From Halicephalobus mephisto (Eukaryota > Nematoda > Chromadorea > Rhabditida > Panagrolaimidae), in contig SWDT01000016.1 in the NCBI GenBank assembly GCA_009193035.1, positions 744,001 to 808,000 on the forward strand: a stretch of 64,000 nt of DNA, given 5' to 3'. Positions 46,851 through 60,037 of the stretch are shown in pieces. Numbering within the stretch: the stretch's first letter is position 1; each line of letters opens with the position of its first letter. The notes below the pieces were generated by a model, which was not told the origin of the DNA, ran no database searches, and saw nothing but the letters and a program-made list of their open reading frames with translations. The position numbers and the translations under genes are program-made.

Positions 46851-48598
46851 TTAAACATCAAGGAGAAGTGGGTCATTATTAATCACTGTCTCTGGCATTA
46901 ATCGAGCAAATTTCGAATAAATATTGTGGAAATCAGGTCTAACCTCTGGCTGATTATGGAAACCTATAAATTAATGTTTAACATCATAATTTAAACTATT
47001 TAATTTACATTGAAGAACTTTATTCCATAATTCTTGTGGCATATACTCTGGCTTAGTTAAGCGGCTTCCGTCACGAAGATAGCCTGCAATCTGATCCTGA
47101 TTTGTTAACCCTTCTATTTCGTATGGTTTTGTCCGTGCCATTGTCCAAATTTCCCAAGCTGTGACTCCAAAAGCCCACACATCTGTCATTTTTGTAACTT
47201 TGTGGGGTTCTAGAGAACGAACTACCAACTCCAAGGCGAGATGAGTGATAGTACCTCCTCGGAATCGCCCGTTATTGTCGTTCTCATGAAAGGATAACCC
47301 AAAATCGCTTATTTGAACGGTAAACTCGTCTTTAACGAGGACATTCGAAGCCTTTAAGTCACAATGAAGGATCGGTATACTATGTAAGTGGAGCATGCCA
47401 TCGGCGATCTGCACACAAAATCTGGTTAGTTGGTCTTTTGGGAGTCTAACTGTCTTCCTCGCTAAGTAGCTCTTGAGGTTATCTTGCCGCCGAGGCATAA
47501 TCAAAATCAAATCATCCTTCATGTTCACCCCCAAGAGGCGAAGAACATGGGGGTGTCTGGGGATTCTCATCATGTTCTCCAGCTCTTCAAACATTTGCTG
47601 AAGATTGAATATTATGTAGATGTTAAGCAATATTTACATGAATGATGGAATTTAAAAATAAAAGACAACGGAGGATAATAAGGTAAAACTTCTTTAAGAT
47701 CACTACCCAAAAGATGATGTTTAGGAAATGAGTAAGATACTATGTTGTTGTTTCTGAATAACTTGCTCGAAAACTAAGTATTTTCATTTGAGTAGTAATC
47801 TTAAATATTGTCTTTTCACTTCATCCGAATTTTTTCAGTCTTGGATTTTATCGTGTGAAAATTAACAGTACCTTTTTTTGATCAATATTATTGGCTTTCA
47901 TAACTTTAACAGCCACTTTTACGGACTCTCCATTTGGTTTGTTGTATATACACTGCAAAAAACTAATTTTTATTAAATTTTACTCACGATTTTACCTCGT
48001 AAACAGTTCCAAAACCTCCGCATCCAATTCGTTTTTTACTTTTAGTATCTAGATATCTCATTGGAATACTTTCTATTTTGTTTTCTTCCAATTCTACCAC
48101 TTCTATTGGATGATTGAAGAACTTTTGTGGTGGTATTCTCGTGCATCTGTGATAGCTAATGAATCCTATTATAACGACAACAATACAGCCGAAGGTAAAG
48201 ATGTAAATAGAATTGTTAGTTGTTTGATTACTTACTGGATCTGGAGGTTTTTCTGTAGTTGGAATATTAGGCATAACAGGATAACTTGGGATTGGAATTT
48301 GGTATCTGTTGATTTTACAGAAGTTATATCTTTTCTCTGGCAATTCTACCACAACTCCATTTTGGCATTCTGAACTGCAGGCAAATGTGGATGATTCCGG
48401 CGATTCTCCGATGCGATAATCACCGTCGAAACAAGAATCACATTGACTGCTATTCGATCCTATACACGTTCTGCAGCTTGTATGGCATTCGTGGCAACTA
48501 TTTTGCGTCTGAAACTCGTGCATTCCGCAAAATAACCTCCCCTCTGACGAAACATTTAAAATAATGAATAATATATTGAAAATATACAATTGATTCAT
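46851..48598 (-). CDS. Atypical single-pass receptor kinase K1 (HCD motif)
   Basis: Minus-strand exons 48598-47996, 47952-47872, 47597-47009 and 46963-46851 encode 461 residues. Order: signal peptide (MNQLYIFNILFIILNVSSEG), a furin-like cysteine-rich segment (CHECHTSCRTC, CDSCFDGDYR), a Pro/Thr-rich stalk with NQT and NNS sites, a transmembrane helix (IYIFTFGCIVVVIIGFI), a juxtamembrane region and a kinase domain. Kinase motifs: GCGGFGTVYE, VAVK lysine, FEELENM, HCDLKASNVLV, DFGLS, DVWAFGVTAWEIW, EVRPDF. The overall style is tyrosine-kinase group, but HRD is HCD, the activation segment (DFGLSFHENDNNGRFRGG) has no tyrosine and APE is replaced by ALE. Lysine, DFG and catalytic aspartate remain, so activity is possible but atypically regulated. 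It is divergent from P1 with ~480 bases between starts. Confidence 0.85.
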
Positions 48599-49079
48599 TG
48601 TAGTACATTTAAAAAATGTTTTTTTCCTCTTGTTTCTTATCACAACAACACACAATTTTCTTCATTAAGTCTTTGAAAAAATGATAAAATTAATTAAATA
48701 TAAGAAAACAACATTATTCTTAAAAATCATGAAAACCCCGGAATTTTCTGTTTAGGACCTTTATAATTTTGTGGATTTTCATTTCTGACCTTGTTTAGAT
48801 ATCATCAAAAATTATATATTATTAATAGTTCAGACAGGAAATCCAATTAAAATCTTAAAGGAAAATATGGTAACTGGATAAAATAACCTACAATATGCGT
48901 GATCGTGTTGATTCTTACCTAAGTATTTTATCTCTTTACTGTAGACAAACTATTTATTTTATGATTTACAAATAATTTTTCAATAATCAATACTATAAAA
49001 TACATTTAGTACTTATACTAATAAAAATTGATAAGAAAGTAAGAACACGCAGAATTGATTTTTGTCTTTTGCTGTTAGG
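48599..49079. promoter_or_regulatory. Shared divergent promoter of K1 and P1
   Basis: A 481-base AT-rich gap separates the start codons of the minus-strand kinase K1 and the plus-strand gene P1. It must contain both promoters if the models are right. No TATA box at a fixed distance or shared palindrome could be singled out by eye. Confidence 0.4.
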
Positions 49080-51252
49080 ATGTTTTCCAGTAAAAAGCTA
49101 TTTATTTTTTTATTAATTAGCAGTAAGTTTTTATATAGTACTTTTCAAAAATTTCCACTTAATATGTATGTTTAAGCTTCATTAACCATCTTATGGGCAT
49201 ACCCTATCAATTCATGCCAATTGGGAAGAGATCGAGGTCCTATTAACCAAGGAAAGTGCCCTAATATGTTCTTCCTCAGTCAAAATGAAGATACAGTAAG
49301 CAGTTTGGTTAGAAAGCAAGTTATTGAACATTAATTTTAGGAAACTTACATTGACGCTACAGGCTTCAATAATTGGCCACATTTAGTTGTGATTAAAAAA
49401 GATGCTTCTCGGATAGAGAAAAAAATGCCATATATAAATGGAACGAAAATTAAAAAAGTTAAGCATTACGGTAATTGGATTTACGTAGAAGAGGCTTCGT
49501 CATTGGGAAATTCAAAAACGGTGCTGATTTTCAACTATGATGATATCATGTCCAATGAAGACAAAGCCACAAATGAATCCTATGACGTTGATGCTGTCTA
49601 TTTTGGAGAATACTTCTCCATAGGCTACAAGGTGTACAAGGACGAACCAAACATCGTATATAGTGCTATTATTTTGCCGAAAGTGAGGACTAAGGAAGAT
49701 GTGTTTATTACTGTATCTGGAGTAAGTTATTATTGGTTTACAATGCAATCAATTAGAGTATTTTCAGTCGAATTTATCGCTTTTCGTTAACCAAACTGGT
49801 TTATTGTATGTGAAATATAACAGCTACGGTGTTCAAAATAATTTCGTCGTAAATATTCATAGTCCTACTAATTTGCCATCTAAATGTCCGTTCGATCTAC
49901 TAATCATTCTCATTTTTATAATTATATTTATTGGAATCTTTTTCACTGTTTGGGTCTGCTTTTATATCTGTAAATCAATAAGGAAAGCACGGATAGACAT
50001 TTTGAGAGCATTTCTACCTCGAAGATTATACAGTCCACTTCCCACTAACTCTAAATCAGATGAAGAGCAAAAGACCGATGGAGGTGTAAAAGATCAAGAC
50101 ATGACATTGTCATCAGGAAGTGATTCTAAACCCAAGAAAATGAATGCAAAAGCAAGAACAAATTCGGACACCAGTTCTTCGAACACTAAAACACTAGAAA
50201 TCAGTAATATTGAAGAAATAGTCAAGGAAATGCAACATTCAGGTTCTACTGAGTCAAAAAAGAATTTGAAAATACAGGAATCTCTTCCAAAAATTAATAA
50301 AGAAAATACAGAATTCGGCGTGTCTGAAAATAAGAATTCAGATCTATCAGAAAGCAAACAATCTCATCAGTCTACACAGCAGAAATTACTTGTTAATGAG
50401 AAAGCCGAATCAATATCTTCAGCACCTCAAGCAGATGAATCTGGTTCTTCTCGGATTAACAGCCCTCTGTCAGAACCGGCAACATTTTCTTCAGAAAATC
50501 AGACAAAGTCCGATCCTTCACAATCTAAGCATATAGAAGATCTACAATCAAAAGCAGACCATCATCTGCCTCCAGAAATGATTATTAAACATTGTCCTGA
50601 ACCTTCTACCATAAATTCTCAAGAGGTTTTTTTACCAACTCAATCTTCGAATCCTATCGAAAATCATCATCCAGATGCTGCATCAAAGAAAAACCTTTCT
50701 TATCAGAAAACCACTATGGCAGCTGATTCTCAACCAAGTTCTTCTGAGATTAACGGAATTTTTTCAACAATAACATCACCATCTACTGCAGATAATGTGG
50801 AAATAAAGTTTTCAGACCCCAAGAATTTGAATAATACTCTTTTACCAACTCAATCTTCGAATCCTATCGAAAATCATCATCCAGATGCTGGATCAAAGGA
50901 AAATCCTTCTAATTCAAAAGATGTTACTGAACATAATGCTCAAGCAGATTACTCTGGAAGTAATAATAATGATCACGGAGTTGCGACTTTAAGAACCGAG
51001 TCCAAACTCAGTAATTTATGCAATGACACAAATAGATCTGTAAATTCAAACGGTATGCAGGCTTTACCAAATTTCCAAATACCTAAAAAGCTTCAGCCTT
51101 GCTTAAATACTCCAATGAAGAATAAAAATATTTATGAAAAAATGAATTATGAAAGAAGATCATCAAAGAACGAAGAAACTGAAGAACTTCTCAAAGAGAA
51201 TCCTGATTCACAAGTTGAACAGCTGAATGAAGGACCTGTACCAGAAACGTAA
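49080..51252 (+). CDS. Single-pass membrane protein P1 with long polar cytoplasmic tail
   Basis: Exons 49080-49122, 49177-49295, 49341-49721 and 49768-51252 give 675 residues. A short signal peptide (FSSKKLFIFLLIS) is split by intron 1. The ectodomain (~210 residues) has few cysteines (NSCQLGRD, GKCPNMFFL, SKCPFD) and several N-glycosylation sites. A transmembrane helix follows (LLIILIFIIIFIGIFFTVWV), then a ~420-residue Ser/Gln/Asn/Glu-rich tail with no folded domain. The tail contains a near-exact 65-base duplication (50631 and 50841, period 210 bases) encoding LPTQSSNPIENHHPDA twice. Homologous to P2 at 58280 in exon 1-2 boundary, ectodomain start and topology. The family is not recognised. 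Its divergent pairing with a receptor kinase, repeated for P2, suggests a co-receptor or ligand role (inference). Confidence 0.78.
50631..50905 (+). repeat. In-frame internal duplication in the P1 tail
   Basis: Two ~65-base segments starting at 50631 and 50841 are almost identical and lie 210 bases apart, a multiple of three. Both encode LPTQSSNPIENHHPDA followed by Ser/Lys. The high identity indicates a recent event or homogenisation within the tail. Confidence 0.85.
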
Positions 51253-51678
51253 CATGTTTGTTCGGAAGAATAATTTAATAAGGGTTATGCTAAAGCTTTT
51301 TGTTTTATTAGTTCCAATAAGTGTTTTGTCATATATGTCCAAGAATGACGAAATATGTATTTCTCAGGATCTATATTTCAAATCCTTTTTCTTTCAAATT
51401 AATTCATAACTATGGTATCTATAATCACTAAGTTCCTCACAAAGATTCTCTTCAAATATCCTGCCTAAAAATTTGTGACATATTATATGAACTTGATAAA
51501 AATATTTTTGTGTTTTCTATTATTATTGATGACAAAATCTTTGTGCTTGTTAAAGTGGAAAATATAATGAATTAAAGTATTTCAATAGTCTATTTAACAG
51601 GAAAAAATAAAAACAGTTAATATTATACTGCGTTAACAATGATGTAAGTATTAAAGACGAAATTAAATCGTTAACGAT
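51253..51678. other. Spacer 3' of P1
   Basis: AT-rich 3' flank with no recognised feature before the second copy of the structured repeat. Confidence 0.4.
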
Positions 51679-51890
51679 CTAGAAAGAAAACCCAAAGCTC
51701 CACCCAGTCAACCTATGCCTGAGAAGCGAGGTGAGTGTTAGAGAGTCAGTCTTTGAGACAATCCACCTCTAAACTGGCCCGAGTTTGACTTCGGTCAAAC
51801 GAAGATCTTTCCTCTCTTTGTTCCATGCTTATGTTATAATGAACAGGCTTTCATTGCTAACAGTAGGAACCGACAGTTTTCCGCCTAATC
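51679..51890 (+). repeat. Dispersed ~210-base repeat with UUCG-capped hairpin, copy 2
   Basis: Second copy of the element at 46221-46432. The hairpin GTTTGACTTCGGTCAAAC is unchanged (51783-51800), whereas surrounding bases differ at many positions. The blocks GTTAGAGAGTCAGTCTTTGAGA and CATGCTTATGTTA are also kept. Selective conservation of the stem-loop favours a functional RNA or a mobile element whose RNA structure matters. Confidence 0.6.
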
Positions 51891-51994
51891 ATGAAGCTCC
51901 AAGGTGTCGTACTATCGATATTCCAAGATCACCACATATTTTATTATAATAATTTAAATGTTAATTATGATGTGATTTAACTATAGATTTTTTA

Positions 51995-54164
51995 TTATTT
52001 ATTAAAGGGATTATATACAAAATCATATTCTTTTACAGTAAAGTTATGTTCTCTTTGTCCTAAATAGTCGGGTATCGCATCTTCTTGTATAGAAATTTCA
52101 AAACTATTTGAGTTTTTGTATTCATGTAATTGAAATATATTGCCTGAACTGGATTGGGTTTCTATGCATCCCATTGATTTAGAATAGGAAATCGGTTCTT
52201 GAGAGAAATGCCTATCAATGTAATGCTGATTACTTTCATTTAATATTTTACCTTGAGTTTGTTTCAGAAAACTCTTAACCTTGTATCTATTCTGTTCATA
52301 CACTACTAAAGGAATTGTGATATAAATTGACAGATCAGTAGTTTTTCCCTTGTTGATTTGCGTTTTCTGAAGTCGCTCATTGATTGAAGGAGATAATTCG
52401 GCATTGTTGAGTCCTTGATTTCCACAGATATCATTTCTAAGAATTGTAGTTGGGGCCGAGTCTGTTTGCTCGTATTTTTCTTGTCGATGGCTCGGATGAT
52501 GACAATGAAACAACTTGTCTTTATATTTCTTTGATCCACAAGAACAGAAAAGATTGAGTTCTTTGTGACAGACAAAGTCTCCACATTTGGTGCAGATCCA
52601 TTTTCTCTTATCTTTTGTGCATTCTTCTGGACATTCTGATTCCAGTAATTTCAATATATTCGGCGGTTCAGTTAATTTGCAATTAGCTTTTTCCATATTG
52701 ATGAATCCGAAACAAAACTTATTTTTCTGTTTATCTTGAATGTACGGCTCACATACTTGATCATCAAGAAATATCATGTAATCTTTGAATCTATCTATTC
52801 CTTGAAGTTTTTCAACAACTTCCTCAAACCCTGTGCAAGTACCAATAAATTCTCCCATGCAATTTTCCCATTTCCCGCTGATTTTAATAGGGTACCAATC
52901 ATTCAGTTTGCATAGCCATGTCCTCATGTCATCGACAGTTCCTGGAAGGAAATCTCCTTCCTCCATATCCACTATGTGATCTATTGAGTACTTGATGTAG
53001 TCAATGTAACAATTAAAGAGTCTTTTCAAGATTGGATACATCATCAGAAAGTTGTCTGTATCCATGGTTTTATATTCTGTTTTAGCGTTGTCCAAGCGAA
53101 CAGCGATCTTGACGAATGAATTCTCTTCAGAGTTTTTATCTACAGGGATCTCAGAACAGTCAGGATCTTTCACCACTGTGTACTTTTCTTCAGGACTATC
53201 GGGATGAACACTATTCTTGATAAATGATTTTTCTATAGAATTTTTACTCTCAGAACAGGCGACATCTTCTGTAGCTTCGTAGTTTTGTTTAGTGCTATTT
53301 AGATGGACAGTATTTTTGACCAATGATTTCTCCTCAGAATCTTTGTTTTCATGAATCTTAAAATAACCAGCTTCCTCCATTTTCATTTCTATTTTTCTAT
53401 ACACGCAGTAGAGGTAGGAGAGGAATTCCCCAAATTTCCCTTCATTATTAACTTTAGTTTTCCGGAATTTCTCATTCAGTAGTTTGTAATGGAAATAAAT
53501 CGGAATATCATATTTGGTATGTTCTGTTTTTTCCAATTCTTTCGTGAAGTTCATAAATTCTTCCAGAGTCATTTTTTTGATTTCATCAAAGTTAATCAAA
53601 ACTTTGCACTCAATTTTCTTTTGAGATTCACTCGGATTTCTATTTTCAAATAATGTCTTTAACTACAAATTAATTTTTTTTAATTTAATTTTCTCCATAT
53701 ATAAATTAATCAAACCTCTTCATTATTTTCTGGAAATTTCAGCTTTGGAAAAATCACTCTCAATTGAATGCCATAGATAATTCCACTGACATAATGACTG
53801 CAATTCGACGGATAGTCCGGGAATTTTTCGCATTTTTTACTTTTTCGATATACCCAACAAATGACCTTCCAATATTCCTGATCATCAAAAACGATTTCAA
53901 AGTCTAGAAAATTGCTATAACTTGGTTTGAGAAAAATACTGGGGAAATCCTAAAATGCACAGTATATAAAATTACGAATACTGTAATATAGCTTACAAAA
54001 GGTGGTATTTTGTCACACGATAAGACATAGCAATTGTAACTAAAGCAGTATTTTAATGATTGCGATATAACGTTAGGAGGATTTCCTTTCATGGGTTGTA
54101 GTATTCTCAATGATTCGTTGTATCCCCATCCGAGTTCACATGGAGCACCATACACCCAAGCCAT
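51995..54164 (-). CDS. Unrecognised protein with a cysteine/histidine-rich segment
   Basis: Minus-strand exons 54164-53997, 53949-53716 and 53662-51995 join in phase to 689 residues. The N-terminal ~130 residues are aromatic and cysteine-containing (LKYCFSYNCYVLSCDKIPPF, FDDQEYWKVICWVYRKSKKC). A charged central region contains three similar stretches of about 45 residues around NSEENSFVK / SEEKSLVK / NSIEKSFIK with D-x-A/S-x-x-x-Y, so it has weak internal repeats. Then comes a probable metal-binding segment, WICTKCGDFVCHKE and LFCSCGSKKYKDKLFHCHHP, with paired CxxC and CxC cysteines and histidines. The C-terminus is polar. No signal peptide or membrane helix. I do not recognise the family; a zinc-binding nuclear or cytoplasmic protein is plausible. 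It lies between the two kinase modules. Confidence 0.68.
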
Positions 54165-55925
54165 GGTAGAAAAGTGGTAAAATTGGTATTTCTTAAAAAT
54201 TATTTGGTAATTAAGAAGTTAGAATCAATATTTTCAGTATACAACTGCTCAATTTCCTTATCACAAATTTCATCATCAAGATTGAATGGATGACATAGTG
54301 GAAAAAGTTCGGGCGTGTAGACCAATCGCAATTAATTTTTTCCAAAGGAACTCGACTTTTTTGACGGCGATTATGAAACTACTGTTCAGGGCTTCATAAT
54401 GATACTAAACTCATTTCTCAATTTTCACTTTGGGAAAAATTATGAAGATCAAAACGGAAATACCGTGAAGTTATTGTTTTTATTCGACTCACGCCTCAAC
54501 ATACTTTGGATTGATGAAGTTTTCACGATTAAGTAAGCTTTCTACTAGCGAGCACAATAGGGTCTTAGTTCCCAATGTTTTCGCTATCAATTTGATAGGC
54601 AAGATCGTGCAGATGGCTACATATCCAAAACTTATGATCATCCAAAACAATATTATCTCCAATCAAGAGATCTTGCTTGTCTTTCGTAAATTACAAGGCC
54701 AATATAGATCAAAGATATATTTTATGACACACTGAAACCTTGAGCTCAACAGCACTTCACAGATTGAGATTCAAGTTTTCAACAGAATTCTGCATGGGCA
54801 TATCATGCAGAGGAGATTATAGACGGACCCCAGAAAAGTACGGTCGATTTCAACACATGACAAACTGACCGGTGAATTTGCTAGATTTAAGCTTGATGGA
54901 TTTTAATCTCTGGGATACTTAGAAAAGTTTTCGCTATAACTTACAGGGGTTCGGACTCTCTCAAAACAGCTTGAGTAAAAGAATGAAATAAAATTCCTCA
55001 GGATAAGTTGTGTGTCATAATGACCGTAATACAGAAGAATCTGATGACTTGAAAAAGTAAAACGTGAGAAGTTGCGAATCCAATATGTTATGTTATTAAA
55101 TCAGATGTTTAGTTATATTTCAGGATTTGTCTTAAGAAGATTTAGTTTAGGTAACTTTTTCGCTTTATAAATTCTCGCTCGAACTTTTTGCTCGCCTTAT
55201 AGAGGTGATGTTTATTGTTCGTAGAAATGGATTTTCATTACCGGGTTCTATGACCAATTATTAAATATGGATAGATCTGTTTTCTGGTTTGTATACAAAT
55301 TGAAGTAGTATTCTCAGAAAAAGAAATTATTTTAAGTCTACTTTCGCAATTTGCTTCAATCCTGATTTAGTCTAAGATTTCCCAGTACTCGATAATTTCG
55401 TCGGAGAGACGAAGACAAAGTCTATAAATATGTACTTCGATGAAATTTTTCAGTACTTAATCAATTATTTAATTGCAACGACATTGCAGTTACTAGAACA
55501 AAGATTTGCTGACAAATTTCTGTTACAAAAACTGTAAAATCTTACTAAAAATACGGTTATAACAATGTGTTATGTTTAAGTTCTATATGGAACTGTCTGT
55601 GAACTCATTATCCTTTTGCTGGCGAATATAGAAAGTAATTTTGACGGTTTTATTGATGCTTATATCTTCAAAAAAAAATTTATTTCATCCCTTTATGAAC
55701 CATATGATTCTCAAATAATATCGTTTGTCTGCAATTCTGAAACATAATTTTCATTGTAAGTATATCAATCAAATAGCTGATTCAGATACGGTGGAGGAAA
55801 TTTGTATCATGGTTATTTTCAAGTATTGAAAAATAGAAATTGTTTACAATATTCTTTTTTTTCAAAGGTCATTTTTCTTAAGATGTACAGTATTTTTTTT
55901 ATTGATAGAAAAATTAATGATGATT
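54165..55925. other. 1.8-kb spacer 3' of receptor kinase K2
   Basis: No supported gene. The open frame at 54511-54735 lacks splice context and family resemblance. From ~54250 to 55000 the composition is slightly richer in G and C than the surrounding AT-rich DNA, which could be a decayed gene or transposon remnant, but no family could be named. Confidence 0.4.
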
Positions 55926-57644
55926 TTAATGGCTTGGTATCAAATGATTCTCTAAAGATGCTATCGATGCAAGCATGATTCTAGCGAATTTTGCATGGAG
56001 TTGCCGGAAATTAGGTCGGACGTCAGGATCTGTTGAGAAACCTACAACAAGAAATTAGATGACTTTAAAAACAGTTCTTACATTGAAGAACTTTGTTCCA
56101 TAATTCTTGTGGCATATACTCTGGCTTAGTTAAGCGGTTTCCGTCACAAAGATAGCCTGCAACCTGATCCTGATTTGTTAACCCTTCTATTTCGTATGGT
56201 TTTGTCCGTGCCATTGTCCAAATTTCCCAAGCTGTGACTCCAAAAGCCCACACATCTGTCATTTTTGTAACTTTGCGGGGTTCTAGAGAACGAACTACCA
56301 ACTCCAAGGCGAGATGAGTGATAGTGCCTCCTCGGAATCGACCATTATTGTCGTTCTCATGAAAGGATAACCCAAAATCGCTTATTTGAACGGTAAACTC
56401 GTCTTTAACGAGGACATTCGAAGCCTTTAAGTCACAATGAAGGATCGGTATACTATGCAAGTGGAGCATGCCATCGGCGATCTGCGCACAAAATCTGGTT
56501 AGTTGGTCTTTTGGGAGTCTGGCTGTCTTCCTCGCTAAGTAACTATAGAGATTGTCTTGCCTCCGGGGCATGATCAGGATCAGATCCGCAGCCATATTTA
56601 CTCCAAGAAGCTTAATGACGTAAGGGTGTCTGGGAATTCTCGTCATGTTCTCCAACTCCTCGAACATTTGCTGAAAAGCACTTTTTTCAATAACTTCTTA
56701 TAAGAGATAGAAGGATGTTGCAATTTTTTATTTCTTTCGAAAACCAAAAACAGCAGTTTCCAAATTATGAACTATGATGATCACACAAGTTAAAATTCAA
56801 CTGTAGTATTACCTTTTTACGTTCTTTGTTGTTGGTCTGTAAAACTTTTACAGCAACTTTTTGAGTTTCGCCGTCGGCTTTCGTATAGGTACACTGAATA
56901 TTCAAGTAAATTTCGGTTCTTTTAAAAAACTTACTTCATAAACTGTCCCAAAAGCTCCTCTTCCGATTTTCTTTTTATTTTTGATGTCCAGTTGCTGCAT
57001 CGAGATATTTCCAACTCTGGATTCTACCTCGGGAGTCTCCACGAGAGGAATATTCTGTGTAGTTCGAGTTGAAGCTTCTCTTGTGTATTTAATGTAGAAG
57101 ATGAAGGGAGTAACAACAATTAAAATACAACAAAAAGCAAAGATAGCAAATACTAAAATGTTCAAATTCAGTCCATTTCCAAGCTGAGCATCTTTGTTAC
57201 TCGAGAATATACTTGGGTCTTGAATCTTATTACTGATTGGAGGTTCTTCATGGCGGGTAGTTATCTGCTGAATCGGTTTATCAGGCTCCCGCAAAGATTT
57301 AGGTGATTGTATGGATTTACAAAATCTGTACTTTTTCTTGAGTATCTCTATATCTTCTCCGTCAGGGCATTCACGATTACAGGAAAATGTCGGTGAATTC
57401 AATGATTCCCCTACACGGTAATGATTAGCATAACAAGAAGTACAGTCTTCAATTTTAGGTCCGGAGCAACGTTTACAACTTAAATGACAGAAGTCACAAC
57501 CGTTCTCAGTTCGGAATTGATTTGATGTGCAAAGGTGTCCGGCTAAAGGATACTTTTCGTCACTGTAACCGAATATAATTCCAACTTACCATGTGAATAA
57601 TTAAGAAGAAAACATAAGAAGAACACAATTTCAAGTCGATACAT
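55926..57644 (-). CDS. Atypical single-pass receptor kinase K2 (HCD motif), paralogue of K1
   Basis: Minus-strand exons 57644-57590, 57542-56935, 56893-56813, 56670-56082 and 56041-55926 encode 482 residues. Signal peptide (YRLEIVFFLCFLLNYSHG), furin-like cysteine segment (CDFCHLSCKRCSG, CTSCYANHYRVGES), a Pro-rich stalk, transmembrane helix (LNILVFAIFAFCCILIVV), juxtamembrane region and kinase domain (GRGAFGTVYE, VAVK, HCDLKASNVLV, DFGLS, ALE, DVRPNF). As in K1, HRD is HCD and there is no activation-loop tyrosine. The third exon from K1 and the fourth here are both 589 bases, and the 3' three quarters are nearly identical at DNA level, while the ectodomain, tail and first quarter of that exon are not. 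An extra intron splits the signal peptide compared with K1. Divergent from P2. Confidence 0.87.
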
Positions 57645-58279
57645 AGGTGTCTTTGGAATAAAGACAATGAAAATATTTTTTTCTTGATTTGATGAGTCGA
57701 CTTTATTTTTATCGGCAAATAAATGAGTTTTAATGCAAGGCAGTGGGCAAAAATATAAAAGAAATATAAGAGGAAAAAATATTATACCAATTATTATATC
57801 CCAAAATCTTGCATAGTGTTGTTATCACCATGACCTACATGCCTAAACCCAATCTCAAAAGCCGATTTCCACACATAATTAGTGATTTATCTCATTTCTT
57901 ATATTTTTTCGTTCACATTAAAGAAACACGCCAATTAATCTTGAACTTTTTCGATTAATAGGAATAAAGATCTAGAAAATAAAATCTTTATATCCATTAA
58001 TGAGACTCATGTTAATGACATGCTTTATTCCGTTCAACCTGCTAGTTCCCTCTCGCATCGAATCGTAATTTAACCTATAGTACTCGAGTAATAGAATCAG
58101 ATTTTTTGGAAAATCACTCCATTTTGAGTTTAAACAGTTTTATGATCAATTCTTAAAATTAAGTACTGCGATGATATTCCTTTCTGTGAGTTGCAACTTT
58201 TCAGGAAAAAATCAATTGATAAGAACGACAGGGTGTCAATTCTTGTATTATATTTTTTCATTATAGACTTGGTGTCTAT
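57645..58279. promoter_or_regulatory. Shared divergent promoter of K2 and P2
   Basis: A 635-base AT-rich gap between the start codons of kinase K2 (minus) and P2 (plus), equivalent in position to the K1/P1 gap. No obvious sequence similarity to that gap was noticed by eye. Confidence 0.4.
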
Positions 58280-60037
58280 ATGATGTTGCATTTTTTTATT
58301 CTCTTGTTTTGTAAGTTTAAAATTTAGCATTAAGTAAACTGAAATGATCAAATTCCAGTCCCCTTAGCTATATCTTCGCCAATTTCATCGTTAAGCGACA
58401 AGTGTGATGTTCAAACTGACCATGATTACATTGTTAATGGGCATTGTCCAGAAGTGTTTTACCTGGATGAAATTGATGGCTCGGTAAGATATTCATATTG
58501 CTGTGCTTTACTTTATTCGGTAATTTAGAAATACTACATTCAGAGAAAGGGGAAATTTAACGAACCTTACTTGTTGAAACACACACCTGGCAGACACGAC
58601 GAAATGTATAAGTTGCCTAGTCATCACTGTTCCATCGATTACATGAACAAGGCAAAGTTATACAGTAAAGAGTGGATATTATTAGAGAACAGAGATGAGG
58701 AAAACCAGAAATATTTAATGAGAATGAAGATGTCCAGTGTTATGGAACTTCACGACCGTGCTGATCACATTTGCTATCAAATAGATGGAGTCTTCTTCGG
58801 ACGAAACGACGTGATTATCTACAGTATTAACGATGGGAAAGCAGTGTCAGGTGTGAAATTAACACCACAAGTAATAGAAGAACACCTTGTTTTCACGCCT
58901 ATCATCAACGTGACGGACCCATTATCCTCAATAGAGATTCTCCAAGAAAAGCACTTAATCCAAATCAAGGCGGGCAAGCAAGAAATTTTCCTGAACATTA
59001 ATGAAGAGAAGCAGCAACTTCTCACCGAAGAACCAGAATCTTATTGGAAAATGGCAACGATCGGTCTATTGGTAATTTTGGCACTACTAGGAATAATTGT
59101 CATCATTCTGGCATTTTGTATTTGTAACAGATGCAGATGGAATATCTCCAACAATAACCGTAAAATAAATGGCCCTAATGATGGAACTTCAGAAGAAACA
59201 GTTTTGTTCAATGGTCATGGTGACGGTTGTGTACATCTGAGAACAAAAAATAGAAATCAGCAGCAAACAAATGAACAAGCTCAGAATCACCAAGGCCAAG
59301 GTCCGTCTTTAACTTCAAACTTTCCATCAACAGGAGGAACTACTACAGCAATGAATTCCAACGTCCAAACTCAGTCTCTCGGATCTAGAAGTGTAAATGA
59401 CTTGCATAGAGCTGTGCAACAGACAAACAACCCAACTTCTAGTGCTAACGATGGTAGCCGGAGTCATGGAAATTCAGAAATTCAAAACAACCTTGGACAA
59501 GTAATTGCAAAAAATTACTCCACTCCAAACATAAAACTAGATGAAGCCTATCAATCTGATGCAAATAGTTCTGTAGTCGATCCTGAACAGGGTCAAATCC
59601 CGGAAATCAGGGGAAATGAAGCAGTACTTCATCAATCCACGTTCGTTCAAGATCTTTCGCAAAGAGATGAACTTGATCAACCAACAATAAATATAGTAGA
59701 CGACATACCTGAACCTCCAGGTGATGATCATGTCATTGACATAAAAAAAGATATGCAGGAAGATCCGAGAGCAAGACTTCTGGATGTCAATCAAGGTATG
59801 AAAACCGATCATACACCAAAATGTGATACATCTGGGAAATTACAAAATAACAGAAATCAGAGGAATCAGTACCAAATGAATGATAATGAAGCTCTGAGCG
59901 AAATGATTACAATTATAGTCAACGACAGGAGGGCAGAAAACTCTTCAGATCCCAAGAATTTTCAAAATATACCTATTGAAAAGGAAGAAAAAGTACATAT
60001 TCCTGATATTTTAGGGAAAACAAATTCTGAAGAGTAA
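58280..60037 (+). CDS. Single-pass membrane protein P2 with long polar cytoplasmic tail, paralogue of P1
   Basis: Exons 58280-58310, 58359-58483 and 58529-60037 give 554 residues. Signal peptide (MMLHFFILLF, split by intron 1 at the same phase as in P1). The ectodomain begins DKCDVQTDHDYIVNGHCPEVFYL, which aligns with NSCQLGRDRGPINQGKCPNMFFL of P1, and the next intron falls at the same place. A transmembrane helix follows (IGLLVILALLGIIVIILAFCIC) with a basic CNRCRW stop, then a ~330-residue Asn/Gln/Asp-rich tail without a folded domain. P2 lacks the third intron of P1. The tails share only composition and short motifs such as SDPKN. Function unknown; the repeated divergent pairing with a receptor kinase gene is the main clue. 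Confidence 0.78.

Follow-up and report, generated by a model that had tools for sequence, protein, structure and literature searches.

Two head-to-head kinase and partner gene pairs

The sequence examined here, referred to as the window, is a stretch of 64,000 nucleotides from the nematode Halicephalobus mephisto (bases 744001-808000 of contig SWDT01000016.1, termed C216; other C-numbers likewise denote contigs), and it contains two gene pairs in which a receptor kinase on the minus strand stands head-to-head with the gene of a type I membrane protein on the plus strand. We call the receptor kinase family K and its divergent membrane-type partner gene P; their pairing is conserved within this genome, and the two proteins may be subunits of one receptor. 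Gene models of K1, K2, P1 and P2 were spliced by hand, and one open reading frame (ORF) is maintained across each of them. The features are as follows, in window coordinates:

46851..48598, minus strand: K1 receptor kinase, 461 amino acids (spliced frame; Pfam PK_Tyr_Ser-Thr, E 7e-58)
48598-47996, 47952-47872, 47597-47009, 46963-46851, minus strand: the four exons of K1 (spliced frame)
48599..49079, no strand: K1-P1 intergenic region, candidate shared (bidirectional) promoter, 481 bp (from the gene models)
49080..51252, plus strand: P1, type I membrane partner, 675 amino acids (spliced frame)
49080-49122, 49177-49295, 49341-49721, 49768-51252, plus strand: the four exons of P1 (spliced frame)
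55926..57644, minus strand: K2, paralogue of K1, 481 amino acids (spliced frame; Pfam E 1e-58)
57644-57590, 57539-56935, 56893-56813, 56670-56082, 56041-55926, minus strand: the five exons of K2 (spliced frame)
57645..58279, no strand: K2-P2 intergenic region, candidate shared (bidirectional) promoter, 635 bp (from the gene models)
58280..60037, plus strand: P2, type I membrane partner, 554 amino acids (spliced frame)
58280-58310, 58359-58483, 58529-60037, plus strand: the three exons of P2 (spliced frame)

A first-pass annotation, made from the sequence without database searches, had described this divergent arrangement as occurring twice, and the spliced models bear it out, with start codons 481 and 635 bp apart. 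Both K proteins are laid out as a signal-like start, a single Cys-rich module, a transmembrane helix and a kinase domain; their extracellular part is about 110 residues, and only 14-15 residues lie beyond the last kinase helix (in K1, 14 after FARLM). The ectodomain had been called furin-like. No furin-like Pfam match to K1 or K2 was found at E<=1, the best weak match on the Cys region being VSP, and what stands of that claim is a match of the Cys-module profile to LET-23/ErbB extracellular modules (see below). An L-domain match was likewise absent from Pfam at E<=1, and there is scant space upstream (481 and 635 bp to P).

P1 and P2 each have a signal-like start, about 200 extracellular residues (215 and 223 residues, respectively, precede the helix, signal included), one helix and a polar cytoplasmic tail. 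The small ectodomain and single helix were therefore as first described, while the tails, at about 423 residues in P1 and 298 in P2, fall outside the 330-420 residues that had been given for them. The tails contain 92 (P1) and 45 (P2) Ser/Thr residues and merely 5 and 3 Tyr. The two ectodomains are homologous yet diverged (23-25% identity), and in both genes intron 1 is in phase 1 and intron 2 in phase 0, confirming that the first intron phases are shared; the same phases were read by eye in two P genes of an array described below. Part of the P1 tail is also duplicated internally: LPTQSSNPIENHHPDA stands at residue 470 and again at residue 540 (window 50632-50679 and 50842-50889, plus strand).

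Pairing of K with a divergent partner across the genome

Genome searches covered the 59.9 Mb assembly (331 contigs). It gave 59 AIG1-domain matches, in keeping with the 63 AIG1 loci of the published H. mephisto genome (PMC6872716). Ten K loci on nine contigs matched the K exon at E <= 4.6e-36 among 123 matches, and the best match after these ten was the genome's own LET-23 orthologue (2.5e-21). About 10 kb on either side of the eight K loci outside the window was inspected, with gene starts that are approximate and partner exons joined by eye, and an upstream divergent membrane-type gene was present at seven of the eight (C266, C90, C174, C328, C238, C217 and C163). Over all K loci, a divergent membrane-type neighbour accompanies each of the nine K genes with unbroken motifs, where 'unbroken' refers to the motifs visible, since in part of the dispersed K genes the compared rows do not reach the Gly-loop; the lone exception is the degenerate K gene on C318.

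The same comparison was made by a fixed rule requiring a divergent ORF of >=150 amino acids, no more than 2 kb away, with hydropathy >=2.4 over 19 residues. It was satisfied at 8/10 K starts compared with 124/1545 background positions in the same DNA (8%; binomial P ~7e-8, which is approximate because background positions overlap). The two K starts failing the rule were those on C318 and C328, the latter, on our reading, because an intron appears to split the helix of its partner.

These results overturned an earlier negative, in which the surroundings of the eight K paralogues, out to 10 kb, had seemed empty of P-like exons to a profile of P1, P2 and five array exons; listing all divergent ORFs revealed membrane-type genes that were then joined to one another by genome searches. 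The same two families thus lie head-to-head at many loci within this genome, where their homologues might instead never have been adjacent. The proposal that pairing was conserved through duplication is upheld by the nine intact K loci, by P lineages that follow the K clades and by partner searches that reach other K loci, and conserved K-P pairing within this genome is supported.

Relationships among the partner genes

Five of the seven dispersed partners, named here by contig (C266P, C238P, C174P, C217P and C328P), were used as queries in whole-genome searches at E<=10. C266P found the partner on C90 (7.7e-52), that on C174 (1.1e-5) and a solitary gene at C318:220.6 kb (0.0044); C238P found C328 (1.3e-13) plus one chance-level match (1.89); and at E<=0.001 C174P found C266 and C90, and C328P found C238. 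All six non-self matches at E<=0.001 from the five queries were partner genes at other K loci; C266P and C174P are 22% identical.

P genes also occur in an array of at least eight tandem P-like genes, counted by match positions, at C216:673979-690264 (minus strand), 54-70 kb to the left of the window. Those modelled encode short-tailed type I membrane proteins, and some array tails carry C-terminal PxxP runs, such as PKVPPVLPPR, or Tyr motifs. P1 and P2 found each other in the whole-genome searches (E 0.007-0.03); the P2 query also found the array (C216:674-687 kb, best 0.0045), the P1 query had a weak match at C174:740 kb (0.145), and an array gene query found the array plus P2 (0.014). In profile comparisons the array matched the window pair with 93% probability (E 3e-7), and the C266/C90 partners matched that of C174 with 95% probability.

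The P lineages match the K clades, namely A (K1, K2), B (C266, C90, C174; C318) and C (C238, C328, C217, C163), and all four detected pairs of dispersed P genes lie within K clades (p 0.02). Between lineages, A against C scored 28.1 (shuffle maximum 21.1) and A+C against B scored 32.1 (maximum 16.3); with hhalign, B, C and the solitary gene together matched the array plus the window pair at E 9e-6 (score 41.4; 0/100 column shuffles reached it, maximum 16.7). The partners therefore appear to be mostly one family, eight of the nine being linked by sequence, some of them weakly.

With window- and array-type P as queries, protein databases gave no relative at E<=10 (0/943 candidates for P2, 0/6220 for alignment A1) and PDB gave no credible match (best E 0.08), while Pfam matches were scattered and weak (best 0.006, DUF3021, in one of four members). 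When the P2 exon was modelled in AlphaFold, P1 being the sole other row, the predicted local distance difference test score was 52 and the predicted template modelling score 0.28.

The K kinase domain

The closest named relatives of K are from Panagrolaimus and Halicephalobus nematodes, among them a K-like protein of Halicephalobus NKZ332 (P0005, FO519_009000) that is only 65% identical to the nearest exon of this genome. Eighteen K rows were compared, ten from this genome and eight from databases. Tyrosine kinases have an HRDLAARN loop, in which AAR contributes to binding of the substrate tyrosine (PMC4771162), and the K family does not have a catalytic loop of this type. HxDLKAxN is found in 16/18 rows, the exceptions being C318 (HGDLKANS) and P0006 (HDELKASN), and the HxDLKA loop and the GTxxH of the activation segment are each present in 17/18. 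The residue preceding the catalytic Asp gives HCD in 10 rows, HGD in 3 and HRD in 4, with one degenerate (P0006), so that 13/18 rows are non-RD; in kinases of this kind Cys or Gly typically replaces the Arg before the catalytic Asp (PMC3411088). K1 and K2 both read HCD:

47343..47366, minus strand: K1 catalytic loop HCDLKASN, non-RD with a Ser/Thr-type Lys, compared with HRDLAARN of tyrosine kinases

K1 and K2 retain the Gly-rich loop, the Lys of VAxK, the catalytic Asp and Asn, and DFG, and nine of the ten K genes have intact catalytic motifs where these are visible; the kinase domain is active-looking. The exception, on C318 (682.4-683.7 kb, minus strand), is degenerate in its Gly-loop, in the Asn of the catalytic loop and in DFG, and is without an intact partner; it may be a decaying copy or a pseudokinase. 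In K1 and K2, ALE stands in place of APE, as is normal in EGFR and ErbB2.

A profile of eight K kinase sequences matched 929 PDB chains at E<=1e-30, and the best 60 of the 929 were all EGFR-family. Single-sequence searches with K2 gave a mixture of EGFR-family, Mer/Tyro3 and Met chains, the best single-domain match being LET-23. For the extracellular part, a profile of six K Cys modules matched LET-23 best (E 6e-4, residues 527-585 of a solved LET-23 chain) and then erbB-3 (0.006); 18/19 chains at E<=10 were EGFR-family, with E-values that are modest for a Cys-rich query. K thus has a Cys-rich extracellular module of the EGFR type as judged by this profile. In the genome's LET-23 orthologue (C302:119764-120546, minus strand), which stands at 51% to LET-23 of C. 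elegans, the loop is HCDLAARN, making this conserved EGF receptor non-RD.

Gene conversion between K1 and K2

The first-pass annotation had noted near-identical kinase cores in K1 and K2 and took them for a fixed signalling core beside rapidly evolving ectodomains. Near-identity holds for codons 44-196 of exon 3 (97% DNA and 96% amino acid identity), with the remainder diverged: 84% amino acid identity over codons 1-43 of exon 3, 63% over the part of the N-lobe in exons 1-2 and 33% in the last exon. The boundary within exon 3 is sharp, there being 35 differences in the first 129 bp and 12 in the remaining 460 bp (maximum chi-square 82.5, reached in 0/5000 permutations), and it delimits the following tract:

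47009..47468, minus strand: K1 copy of a gene-conversion tract of 460 bp that spans the catalytic loop, the activation segment and the greater part of the C-lobe
56082..56541, minus strand: K2 copy of the same tract

Synonymous divergence (dS) is 0.063 within the tract, whereas five other coding segments, the last exon and the start of exon 3 included, are saturated (proportion of synonymous differences 0.755-0.871), and the intron directly after the tract differs between the genes. Selection was considered as the cause of the near-identical cores and rejected: synonymous sites are near-identical too, and inside the tract alone, so purifying selection on the protein is no explanation. Trees agree with this, in that K1 and K2 are sisters over the tract (100/99), to the exclusion of P0001, a K protein of Panagrolaimus JU765, while over the N-lobe K1 groups with P0001 (88/91). 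K1 and K2 are an old duplication partly overwritten by recent gene conversion, and the idea of a fixed core beside fast ectodomains is accordingly not supported. The ratio of nonsynonymous to synonymous divergence is not measurable for the ectodomains because their synonymous sites are saturated.

A candidate two-subunit receptor and its alternatives

We lean, by a little, to the view that K and P together form a single two-subunit receptor at the cell surface, their genes being inherited head-to-head as a pair. K would be the signalling subunit, an EGFR/LET-23 derivative that has lost the L domains as well as the long tail at the C-terminus and retains one extracellular Cys-rich module, the helix and a kinase domain that looks active. 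P would be the recognition subunit, with a rapidly diverging extracellular domain carried on its helix, and the Ser/Thr-rich tail of P1 and P2 could serve as a substrate and docking platform for K. The two would be co-expressed from their common 5' region, and the pair would for that reason duplicate and disperse as a unit. The parts of EGFR that K does not have are those for ligand binding and effector docking, and P has the larger and faster-changing ectodomain, so that a split receptor is the simplest joint reading; we infer from the sequences that K and P may function as receptor and co-receptor, as had been suggested at the outset.

Several observations count against this proposal. The two intergenic regions of the window have no significant motif in common (longest exact match 12 bp, reached in 16/100 shuffles). 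The partners are in places tied together loosely: those of lineages B and C escaped the first P profile; C217P matches only itself in the genome, and its link to the C328/C238 partners is weak (31%, E 5e-4, without a shuffle control); the C163 partner shows no homology in the profile comparison; B has no direct match to C (scores 9.9 to 17.3) and alone hardly exceeds shuffles against A (19-20, where shuffles reach at most 18.3); and a comparison of B+C with P1+P2 by themselves is at noise (17.2 versus 17.05), the link therefore passing through the array genes. A long tail is not common to the P family: tails are short in the modelled array proteins, and those of the partners on C217 and C163 number some 25 residues at most. 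Finally, P occurs without K. No kinase match lies within the array in the genome search with the K exon, and the solitary type B P-like gene on C318 (219901-221618, minus strand; an acidic 347-residue ORF) has no kinase match in the adjoining 4 kb (best E 0.31). No membrane helix was noticed by eye in the 230 residues viewed of the solitary gene, which is possibly a secreted relative. P need not, it seems, act with K. P is found alone, yet no intact K is without its neighbour among the ten loci, a pattern in keeping with a greater dependence of K on P than of P on K.

The alternative that survives best is co-inheritance without a complex, in which a bidirectional promoter from an ancestral pair and segmental duplication would have kept together two proteins that act in separate pathways. 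One ancestral pair could give all the pairs by duplication, and both the life of P without K in the array and on C318 and the failure to find a shared motif in the intergenic regions of the window would be expected. Pairing has nevertheless survived near-total divergence (as seen for C266P and C174P and in the synonymous saturation of K1/K2) and spread to nine contigs, by which time passive linkage should have broken at several loci, and the sole partnerless K is degenerate. We regard co-inheritance as somewhat unlikely, though a serious contender.

A second alternative bears on ancestry and is compatible with any of the functional readings: K could be a Ser/Thr receptor kinase of TKL type (MLK-like or receptor-like) with a convergent likeness to EGFR. 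The HxDLKA and GTxxH loops speak for this, and the trees leave room for it. For all trees on EGFR/TKL placement P0003, P0006 and P0015 were excluded, and two long branches, P0026 and own_C314, were also left out of that with TKL references. The 29-row kinase tree joined K to EGFR (74/82) and rejected none of five other placements (p 0.13-0.39); the tree with TKL references joined K to TKL (51/78) when all columns were used, with K+EGFR unrejected (p 0.378). When the two substrate loops were dropped, K joined EGFR (91/89) and K+TKL was 15.7 log units worse, again without rejection (p 0.0875). Together with the EGFR-family chains that head the kinase profile matches and the LET-23 and ErbB matches of the Cys module, this makes a TKL origin improbable in our view, and an EGFR/LET-23 ancestry for K with Ser/Thr-type substrate loops is the favoured, though unproven, reading.

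We think it quite doubtful that P is a substrate or regulator of K and not a ligand sensor, with K acting via its own Cys-rich module or constitutively (as truncated EGFR forms do) and phosphorylating P tails that recruit downstream proteins, a view to which the near absence of a K tail, the many Ser/Thr residues in the P1 and P2 tails and the PxxP runs and Tyr motifs of some array tails are suited, since the C217 and C163 partners are paired despite their short tails and the P ectodomain exceeds that of K in size.

Neighbouring features

Between P1 and K2 lies a 555-residue ORF (window 51995-54218, minus strand), accompanied by upstream exon-like ORFs, in which we read a zinc-finger-like Cys cluster; two pieces of this region were scanned and gave no Pfam match at E<=0.1. 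To the right of the window, C216:813936-822907 has three more kinase matches of the ordinary tyrosine-kinase type, one with HRDLAARN and two altered, and their in-frame stops may be introns or decay.

Comparison with known receptor systems

K shares with EGFR/LET-23 the kinase-domain profile, the Cys-rich module and ALE for APE, and its HCD is also found in the genome's own LET-23 orthologue. EGFR carries a long C-terminal tail, whereas K has almost none; K also differs in having no L domains, some 110 extracellular residues, catalytic and P+1 loops of Ser/Thr type and a paired P gene. Receptor pairs with one kinase-free member are known in plants, where RLP-SOBIR1 combines a kinase-free recognition protein with a kinase of small ectodomain. 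The likeness to K-P, which is one of analogy only, lies in the kinase-free partner joined to a kinase; the difference is that one adaptor kinase, SOBIR1, serves many partners while each K has its own P.

Within nematodes, PMC10523662 describes C. elegans OLD-1 and the pseudokinase FLOR-1, of the KIN-16 family, as both required for oomycete recognition, and places the old-1 locus next to immune-response genes. These too are nematode lineage-specific receptor kinases, and two membrane components are needed jointly. They differ from K, compared here by motif alone, in that OLD-1 has the loop HRDLALRN and its partner is a pseudokinase and not a kinase-free protein (PMC10523662). Plant paired NLRs such as RGA4/RGA5 are generally head-to-head pairs of sensor and helper that share promoter sequence and depend on each other one to one (PMC9528088). 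Their two-gene arrangement resembles that of K-P by analogy only; both NLR partners are intracellular, and we claim no kinship between them and K or P. The plant non-RD immune receptor kinases XA21, FLS2 and EFR resemble K in the residue that precedes the catalytic Asp, Cys or Gly (PMC3411088), and differ in their leucine-rich-repeat ectodomains; an independent origin is assumed, and 4/18 K rows are RD.

It is a guess that K-P pairs sense microbes or the environment. We would also offer, tentatively and as an unlikely but coherent history, that a lineage of EGFR/LET-23 was split, the kinase half shedding its ligand domains and C-terminal tail and gaining mostly non-RD, Ser/Thr-type loops while a separate orphan family of membrane proteins, P, staying head-to-head with it wherever the K motifs are unbroken, took over recognition and docking. 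A keyword search of the open-licence literature found no prior report of K-P pairs, subscription or differently worded papers being outside its scope. Head-to-head two-gene receptors are familiar in plant immunity, and if our reading is true the K-P pairs would form a family of that kind scattered through an animal genome, a counterpart of the plant receptor pairs and non-RD immune receptor kinases, built from the EGF receptor, which is among the best-studied of all receptors. K offers a natural experiment on the way in which a tyrosine kinase might come to have substrate loops of the Ser/Thr type, and the pairing names a partner protein for testing each kinase.

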